Positions 20,160 through 23,100 of a DNA stretch of 37,078 nucleotides are shown piece after piece. The notes under the pieces are model-generated. The model made no database searches. It saw only the letters and a program-made list of their open reading frames with translations, and was not told the DNA's origin. Every line of letters begins with the position of its first letter. Position 1 is the first letter of the stretch. Origin of the DNA: Prolixibacteraceae bacterium (GTDB lineage Bacteria > Bacteroidota > Bacteroidia > Bacteroidales > Prolixibacteraceae); the NCBI GenBank assembly GCA_019459525.1, contig JAIBEY010000114.1:1-37078 (forward strand), in the 5' to 3' direction. The translations under genes were made by a program, and so were the position numbers.

Positions 20160-23100
20160 TTACTGGTAGATCACTTTCGCTTTTTCTACCGGTTTTTCAC
20201 CAGGTTTTAATGGGCAAATCCGGAATGAATAGTTGTAAGTTTTTTCTCTCAAACGATATTCATCGTGAGTCCATGCACCCCAACTGTCGTCACCGCCAAC
20301 TCCCTGTTGTTTGTAGTCGATGTTGATCGAAGTCAGATCGCGCGGTTTGACATCATTGATATGGCGGCGAACCATTTTTTCTCCTTCTTTTACGCGTCAG
20401 TCAGTACGGTCGGGCGATTCAAAATCTTCCATAATCTGGTGGTGGGCGCTAACCGAAAGCAATGGCAAGCCAATGAACTGAAGCCCGAGGCCATCTTTAT
20501 TGGTAATACTTAACCAGCGAACATCGGTTTTGTTGCCGTTTTCCTGCGGACGGATATAGGCAAAATACTGGTCGGCAACGGCTCCTGAATATAAACCAAC
20601 TAAGGCGCTGGTATATCGGTCGGCATACGATTCGTGAGGTCCGCGACCCAGCCAGCTCATTTGGTCAAATTCCCTTGGCATCACCAGGTTCACCCCAAAA
20701 CGAATAATTTCAGGAAGTTGATCTTTTGCCATTTTGAAATCGTTGGTTACTACAATTTCGCCTGTTCCCAGTACTTTGTATGTTGAGGCATAATTGGCAA
20801 TAACTTGTTTTTGTTCGTCGTTCAGGTCAAAAGTGAAAGTTACAATTGCTTCGTTGCCTACTTGTTTTACTGTGGCTGATTTAACGGTTTTCTGCTCTCC
20901 GGCTTTTCTCCAGACGCGGCTGCGTTTATCCAATTCATTCCCGAAGTCGTTGTCGATTGGCGCACGCCAGAAATTGGGGACAGGCCCTGCCATCAGCATT
21001 TCTTTGCCATCAACCTGATAGCTTTTCAGGGTAGCTTCGTCTTTGCTGAAATTCATTTTGAAACCGGTTCCTTCAACAACGATCATGTTGCCTTCTTCTT
21101 TCGAAGTCACAGCCGGAAAGTCTTTCGCAGAAGCGATCACTGCTTTTTTGCTGAAAGGTAACTGGAATTGTTCGTAGGCCAGCTTGGTTCCGGCAGTCAG
21201 GATTCCTTTGGCATTTTTCAGTTTGGCTGAAATATTCAGGAAATATTCGGTGGCAGACTGAGCATCAACTTTTACATCCAACTGTACTTTTTTGCTGGTA
21301 TTCGGAGCCAGTTGCAAATCTGCAATTTCTCCCGATTTCAGTACCTGGCCATCGGCAACCACTTCCCAGTTGAAGGTAAATTCGGAAAGGTTGGTAAACG
21401 AATATTTGTTGCGGATTTCAATTTCGCCATTGTTCAGGTTAACCGCTTTAAACCCGATGTGCTGGTAAACTTTACCTACTTCAATCAAGGTTGGTTTGAT
21501 GGTGCGGTCGGGGTTGATGATTCCGTTGCAACAGAAGTTGCCATCGGTTGCCAATGTATCGCCACCTAAATCGCCACCATAAGCCCAGAATTTGGTTCCG
21601 GCAGAATCTTTGGTCAGGATACCCTGATCAACCCAGTCCCAAATGAACCCACCTTGTAACGAAGGGTATTTCTCAATCAAATCCCAGTAATCCTGAAGGT
21701 TACCAACGCTGTTGCCCATAGCGTGGGCGTATTCGCATTGGATATACGGTTTTGTTGGTTTGCCTTTGGCGTAATCTTCCATGTGTTTCATGCGGGCATA
21801 CATGGGGCATACAATGTCGGTATTGGCACCGCCATGCGCTTGCTCGAACTGTACGGGGCGCGACGAATCGACCGATTTCAGGTAGGCATATGTAGCTTCG
21901 AAGTTTACGCCGTTTCCGGCTTCGTTCCCAAGCGACCAGATGATTACCGAAGGTTGGTTTTTATCACGTTCAAACATGTTGCGGGTGCGGAATAAATGGG
22001 CGTCTTTCCAAACCGGGTCTTTGGCCAGTGATTTTTCTCCGTATCCCATCCCGTGTGATTCGATGTTGGCTTCGTCAACCAGAAAAATTCCGTACTGGTT
22101 ACACAGTTCATACCAACGCTCAGGTTCGGGATAATGAGAAGTACGCACGGCATTGATGTTATGTGATTTCATCAGGAGGATATCCTTCAGCATTGTTTCT
22201 TCATTCTGATAATGGCCAGTGGTGTCGTTGTGCTCGTGGATATTCACCCCTTTTACATAGATGGCAACTCCATTAACGAGCAACTGTGCATCTTTAATTT
22301 CAATGGTGCGGAACCCCACATCCTGACGAAGAACTTCGATAATTTTTCCGGCTTCGTCTTTAAGTGTGATCAGAAGTTGATACAGATTGGGGTTTTCGGC
22401 ACTCCAGGGATTTGCTGCCGGTATGTTTGCTGCAAGATTAACTGTAACCGGTTGGGCTGCTGTTTGAACGGCCTGGTTCATTTCCGCAACTTTGGTTTCG
22501 CCATCCATCAAAACAGCTTCCACCGTTACTGATGGGGTAGTCTGGGCCGAATTGGCCACTTCCACATCCAGCTTAAATTCTCCATCCTGGTAATTGTTCA
22601 CCATTGGCGACGAAACGCGGTAATCGCGGATGTGTTGAGGGTTGCGGGCCATCAGGAATACGTCGCGGGTGATGCCGCTCATGCGCCAGAAATCCTGATC
22701 TTCCAGGTAACTGCCGTCGCTCCAGCGGTAAACTTCAACAGCCAGTGAATTTTCACCGTTTTTGAGGTATTTGGTAATATTAAATTCTGCGGGAGTTTTG
22801 CTGTCTTCGCTGTAACCCACCATTTGTTCGTTTACCCATACATACATGGCCGAACTAACCGCACCAAAATGAAGGATAATATCTTGTCCGTTCCAGTTTT
22901 CAGGAATGGTAAAGGTGCGTTTGTAGGAACCAACCGGATTGTAATGTTTCTGAATGGTTGGTGGAGTTACCTCATGCGGGTACTGAACGTTGACGTAAAT
23001 GGGCACATCAAAACCGTGCATTTCCCAGTTGGCAGGTACCTTCATGGTCGTCCAGTCGCTGGTGTCGTAGTCGTCTTTAAAAAAGTAGAACGGACGTACA

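Follow-up and report, generated by a model that had tools for sequence, protein, structure and literature searches.

A LacZ-type (GH2) beta-galactosidase gene lies on the minus strand of the window (the whole stretch of DNA that was analysed, 37,078 nt, which is an entire contig) and spans positions 20160–23363. Counted from the ATG at 23363, its codon 989 is an in-frame TGA, beyond which the same frame runs on for 78 sense codons to a TAA. Is this TGA the natural end of the gene, a stop that is read through or bypassed, an error in the sequence, or a mutation that has inactivated the enzyme? The features that bear on the question are listed in Table 1.

Table 1. Features of the interrupted beta-galactosidase gene (positions are those of the window).
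Feature	Position	Strand	Basis
GH2 LacZ-type beta-galactosidase body, codons 1–988, from the ATG to the last codon before the TGA	20400..23363	-	Open frame and Pfam
In-frame TGA (codon 989), next base C	20397..20399	-	Sequence; sense codon in 42/42 aligned related sequences, 39 of them glycine
Remainder of the frame past the TGA, 78 codons, encoding the C-terminal end of Bgal_small_N (profile 199–248)	20163..20396	-	Pfam; purifying selection; 44/44 invariant columns kept
Codon of Trp1028 (DDSW), equivalent of E. coli LacZ Trp999, missing from the truncated product	20280..20282	-	phmmer offset to 1dp0; alignment to 6s6z
In-frame ATG, eighth codon past the TGA, with AAGAAGGAGAAAAA upstream; possible, unproven reinitiation site	20373..20375	-	Sequence
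TAA ending the beta-galactosidase frame, in agreement with the end in relatives	20160..20162	-	Sequence; relatives
Terminator-like hairpin with U-rich flank	20030..20110	-	Fold of -31.4 kcal/mol, z = -5.67

When the frame is translated through the TGA, all five Pfam domains of the family (Glyco_hydro_2_N, Glyco_hydro_2, Glyco_hydro_2_C, LacZ_4 and Bgal_small_N) are matched over their cut-offs. They stand for the sugar-binding, Ig-like and TIM-barrel domains, domain 4 and the Bgal_small_N domain by which a LacZ-type enzyme is recognised. The TGA falls within the last of these, dividing the 248 positions of the Bgal_small_N profile into 2–197 before the stop (E = 6.7e-58) and 199–248 after it (E = 2.5e-13). 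Because the matches before and after the stop follow one another along a single profile, the tail is not a chance open frame, and a frameshift or indel is ruled out. The first-pass annotation, made from the letters of the window, had described just such a TGA, with a same-frame GH2 C-terminus behind it and no indel, and was correct in this. In the 21 genus sequences that cover the site the frame ends 77–78 residues past it, as it does here.

The read-through protein (residues 33–1050) was paired by phmmer with residues 14–1021 of 1dp0, which we take to be E. coli LacZ. The offset at the end of the match is 29, placing Trp1028 at residue 999 of 1dp0 on the assumption that no gap intervenes. The structure 6s6z, presumably the Thermotoga maritima beta-galactosidase, aligns across the same GGDDSWGA motif of the tail. 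The tryptophan of the DDSW motif had already been equated with Trp999 of E. coli LacZ, an assignment that both the offset (if ungapped) and the 6s6z alignment uphold. The five-domain architecture and the C-terminal DDSW motif of both enzymes are therefore also encoded here, but the frame is cut by the TGA before its last 78 residues, and this C-terminal active-site tryptophan is absent from the normal translation product. Downstream of the gene there is a stable hairpin, which none of 200 shuffled sequences equalled. It lies where an intrinsic terminator had been proposed earlier, behind the TAA, and is not listed by a simple consensus terminator scan.

The site was compared with related sequences from 61 genomes; apart from the window's own, 22 of these belong to its genus. 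All but one of the 22 contain the stretch with the stop site, at 70–91% protein identity, the exception (G002) having only an N-terminal piece. Among 42 aligned related sequences (L009–L050) the codon at the site is glycine in 39, and valine, asparagine and glutamate in one each; none has a stop, and the frame continues past the site for 64–80 further residues. Three pairs (L022/L038, L027/L039 and L036/L049) lie on equally long contigs with identical letters at the site, so the 42 probably represent 39 distinct sequences. More distant loci (L051–L117) are mostly gapped at this position and were excluded from the count. Within the genus, the residue is glycine in 21 of 21 (16 GGA, 4 GGC and 1 GGT). 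Of the two ancestral codons suggested previously, GGA thus agrees with the relatives, while arginine (CGA) occurs in none of the 42.

A wider scan of the family, covering 140 genomes with the last 167 residues as query, gave a match in 128. Among the best 100 sequences (E ≤ 1.5e-58) only that of the window has an internal stop, and the other 99 have none. Nine further sequences with apparent stops, i.e., seven weaker ones among the family-scan matches listed and two GH2 matches of the 61-genome search, were aligned, and none has a stop within the conserved part: two stop at query residue 1055 or beyond, and seven are open to residues 1047–1054, showing that these apparent stops are natural ends that had been read past. 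Premature stops in these nine are accordingly rejected. The window's own genome (5.54 Mb, 116 contigs, 99.99% complete) carries the beta-galactosidase gene once, together with ten weaker GH2 matches (two being fragments of a single gene), and none of these ten has an internal stop. The collection of viral sequences searched contained no relative of the beta-galactosidase.

A natural gene end at 20397 can be rejected on these data, since all 42 aligned sequences and the 99 best of the family scan continue, and 80 retained loci match to at least residue 1047. The first-pass annotation had allowed that close homologues might all end at this point; not one of the 42 does. Orthology is partly backed by gene order, 18 of the 21 genus loci having at least one of four neighbouring window genes in their flanks. 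None of the four was found beside L009 (the closest by identity), L012 or L020, but flanks extend at most about 1.5 kb, so that absent neighbours mean little. Separately, in five genus members (L023, L024, L025, L026 and L029) the match to the beta-galactosidase is broken into two around query residues 824–852 and the open frame is longer (1097–1130 aa), which suggests an in-frame insertion in these genes.

Selection on the sequence behind the stop was examined by pairwise dN/dS (NG86) over 22 genus sequences, with tail and body treated separately. Against the nearest relative (91% protein identity), dN and dS were 0.077 and 1.14 in the tail, and 0.051 and 0.92 in the body. Median dN was 0.082 for window pairs versus 0.103 for other pairs in the tail, and 0.088 versus 0.114 in the body. 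Tail omega against single relatives ranged from 0.034 to 0.175 (undefined for L021) and was not neutral; for some relatives it lies above body omega, from few sites, e.g., 0.144 versus 0.073 for L012. Private residues were counted over 19 near-full-length sequences (leaving out L022, which is divergent, and L027 and L037, which are partial). The window's protein has one among the 78 residues of the tail and 13 among the 988 of the body, and it keeps 44 of 44 tail columns and 532 of 537 body columns in which the other 18 genus sequences all agree.

Neutral drift of the tail over the whole terminal branch would be expected to produce about 48 changes in these 44 columns (30 with the lower synonymous estimate), and none is observed. 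This bounds the age of the stop to roughly the last 6–10% of the branch, a rough figure that takes the branch as half the pairwise synonymous distance and assumes a clock. Neither tail selection, private residues nor the clock estimate gives any sign of further decay behind the TGA. Conservation in the tail is close to that in the body, which leaves three possibilities: a very young stop, a sequence error, or continued translation of the tail.

Whether TGA is read as sense in this genome can be judged from its decoding machinery. The gene for RF2 (prfB) is present and open over its match, and its start region carries AGGAGG followed by CTT TGA C, the usual RF2 +1 frameshift site (L156, 1497–1512). 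Within the window, TGA is the stop codon of 3 of the 22 ORFs taken as genes. No TGA-reading anticodon occurs among the 46 tRNAs typed by ARAGORN (of 47 matches, one weak match of 29.3 bits being untyped), in a search that scored 150 of 378 first-look candidates and could have missed one. There is no tRNA-Sec over the cut-off of 47, and the best two matches (43.8 and 43.3 bits) are tRNA-Ser genes. The sole tRNA-Trp found is canonical, with a 5-bp anticodon stem, A9 and G24 (by eye), and hence does not show the tRNA-Trp features that the available part of PMC13092985 ties to UGA readthrough. Folding of the 100 nt that begin at the TGA is no better than that of shuffled sequences (z = +1.14), and so no stimulatory RNA structure was seen there.

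In the same assembly, in-frame stops were found in none of 58 SusC-family matches (56 of 112 first-look candidates scored), in one of 100 CarbopepD_reg_2 matches and in one of 11 GH2 matches, the last being the beta-galactosidase with its TGA. The CarbopepD_reg_2 match concerned (G000:C17:7637-7876) contains a single in-frame TAA, and its open frame is no longer than 125 aa; it is possibly another interrupted gene. Several other CarbopepD_reg_2 matches also have short open frames, and one weak release-factor-like match (29.7 bits) likewise contains an in-frame stop.

Genome-wide reassignment of TGA is rejected, given a prfB with its own frameshift TGA, the lack of a TGA-reading tRNA among those typed, the absence of stops in the 58 SusC matches and the three window ORFs that end in TGA. 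Selenocysteine is rejected as well, with no tRNA-Sec over the cut-off and cysteine at the site in none of the 42 aligned sequences. The locus resembles cases of TGA recoding (selenocysteine, tryptophan suppression, the RF2 frameshift) in having an in-frame TGA followed by conserved coding sequence, and in the TGA-C context, as in prfB. It differs in that the stop is not conserved, no tRNA or RNA element was found, and the residue at the site in genus relatives is glycine rather than cysteine or tryptophan. Nothing among these results points to a programmed mechanism.

The best explanation, to which we assign a probability of about two in three, is that a normal LacZ-type GH2 gene has very recently suffered a nonsense mutation, at a codon that is glycine in the genus, and that its enzyme has probably been inactivated. 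The glycine codon would have become TGA in an otherwise normal gene, and RF2 would terminate there to give a protein of 988 residues. This product would lack both the Trp999 equivalent and the last part of the C-terminal domain, and is probably inactive or badly impaired. Young pseudogenes with a single nonsense codon are a known kind in bacteria. The present gene is like them in its lone stop in an open, conserved frame in one genome only, with no difference seen, the base being inferred to be real. The stop is absent from orthologues (42/42 and 99/99) and there is no decay behind it, although conservation of the tail would be expected just as much with its continued translation or with an erroneous base. 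Of the three causes that the first-pass annotation had left side by side (recent inactivation, sequencing error and leaky readthrough), recent inactivation is the best supported: no relative examined shares the stop, the tail remains conserved, and the frame is otherwise open. Leaky readthrough has no more than the generic TGA-C context in its favour. The finding is an ordinary one.

Ranked below the nonsense mutation, and with something like one chance in four, is an error of sequencing, assembly or strain mixture, in which case the true genome would carry a sense codon and the gene would be intact. This would fit a single isolated difference in a gene whose remainder, tail included, looks intact and under selection, and the assembly is a draft in 116 contigs. 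Against it, the SusC, CarbopepD_reg_2 and GH2 counts given above show no general excess of in-frame stops.

Some continued translation of the tail, by leaky readthrough at TGA-C or by reinitiation at the nearby ATG, is possible. We consider it improbable that the stop is real and that near-cognate tRNAs read through this weak TGA-C stop often enough to make some full-length enzyme. The C after the TGA and the conserved tail are in keeping with such leakage, and PMC5289835, in its available part, describes readthrough as commonest at UGA, a +4C as increasing it in yeast, and the RF2 frameshift as occurring at UGA-C. The same source states that misreading of UGA by E. coli tRNA-Trp is favoured by +4A, not C, which argues against this route here, as do the tRNA complement, the intact RF2 gene and the unremarkable folding of the RNA past the stop. 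Programmed readthrough is recognised by a stop conserved among relatives together with the frame downstream, and no stop stands at this site in the 42 aligned sequences or in the 99 other best ones of the family scan. Equally improbable is the broader proposal that the TGA makes a newly split or leaky beta-galactosidase, whose conserved 3′ part is still made by either route, the enzyme surviving at a reduced, tunable dosage. No paper tied to this gene appeared in the literature covered, in part, on readthrough, on reinitiation and on beta-galactosidases with in-frame stops.

Least probable of all is that translation ends at the TGA and starts again at the ATG eight codons on, giving two assembling chains and a split beta-galactosidase: this ATG has AAGGAG and an A-rich stretch just upstream and an A at -3, which aids initiation in Bacteroidetes according to the available part of PMC6847099, but the same text describes Bacteroidetes mRNAs as naturally without Shine-Dalgarno sequences, none of the 42 aligned sequences is split at the site, the small chain would presumably begin within one domain and be without an export signal, and L011 and L037 have identical DNA around the ATG and no stop, so that the region is ordinary coding sequence that did not arise for a restart.

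Elsewhere in the window there is a second GH2 beta-galactosidase (31789–35550, 1253 aa), which is open throughout and in which a Laminin_G_3 domain separates the TIM barrel from domain 4; this enzyme might compensate in part for the interrupted gene. The minus strand between 1197 and 13549 encodes a glycosyl hydrolase with CBM6 and a Por sorting tail, a GH16 protein, a PKD protein, SusD, SusC and a Reg_prop/Y_Y_Y/LuxR-type regulator, a cluster that looks like a beta-glucan utilisation locus.

If the tail were after all translated, the gene would be a natural example of a stop codon tolerated within an enzyme domain in Bacteroidota. With a recent nonsense mutation as the preferred reading, the gene should be flagged as interrupted in annotation, and the strain may be without the beta-galactosidase activity that the intact copies of its relatives encode.
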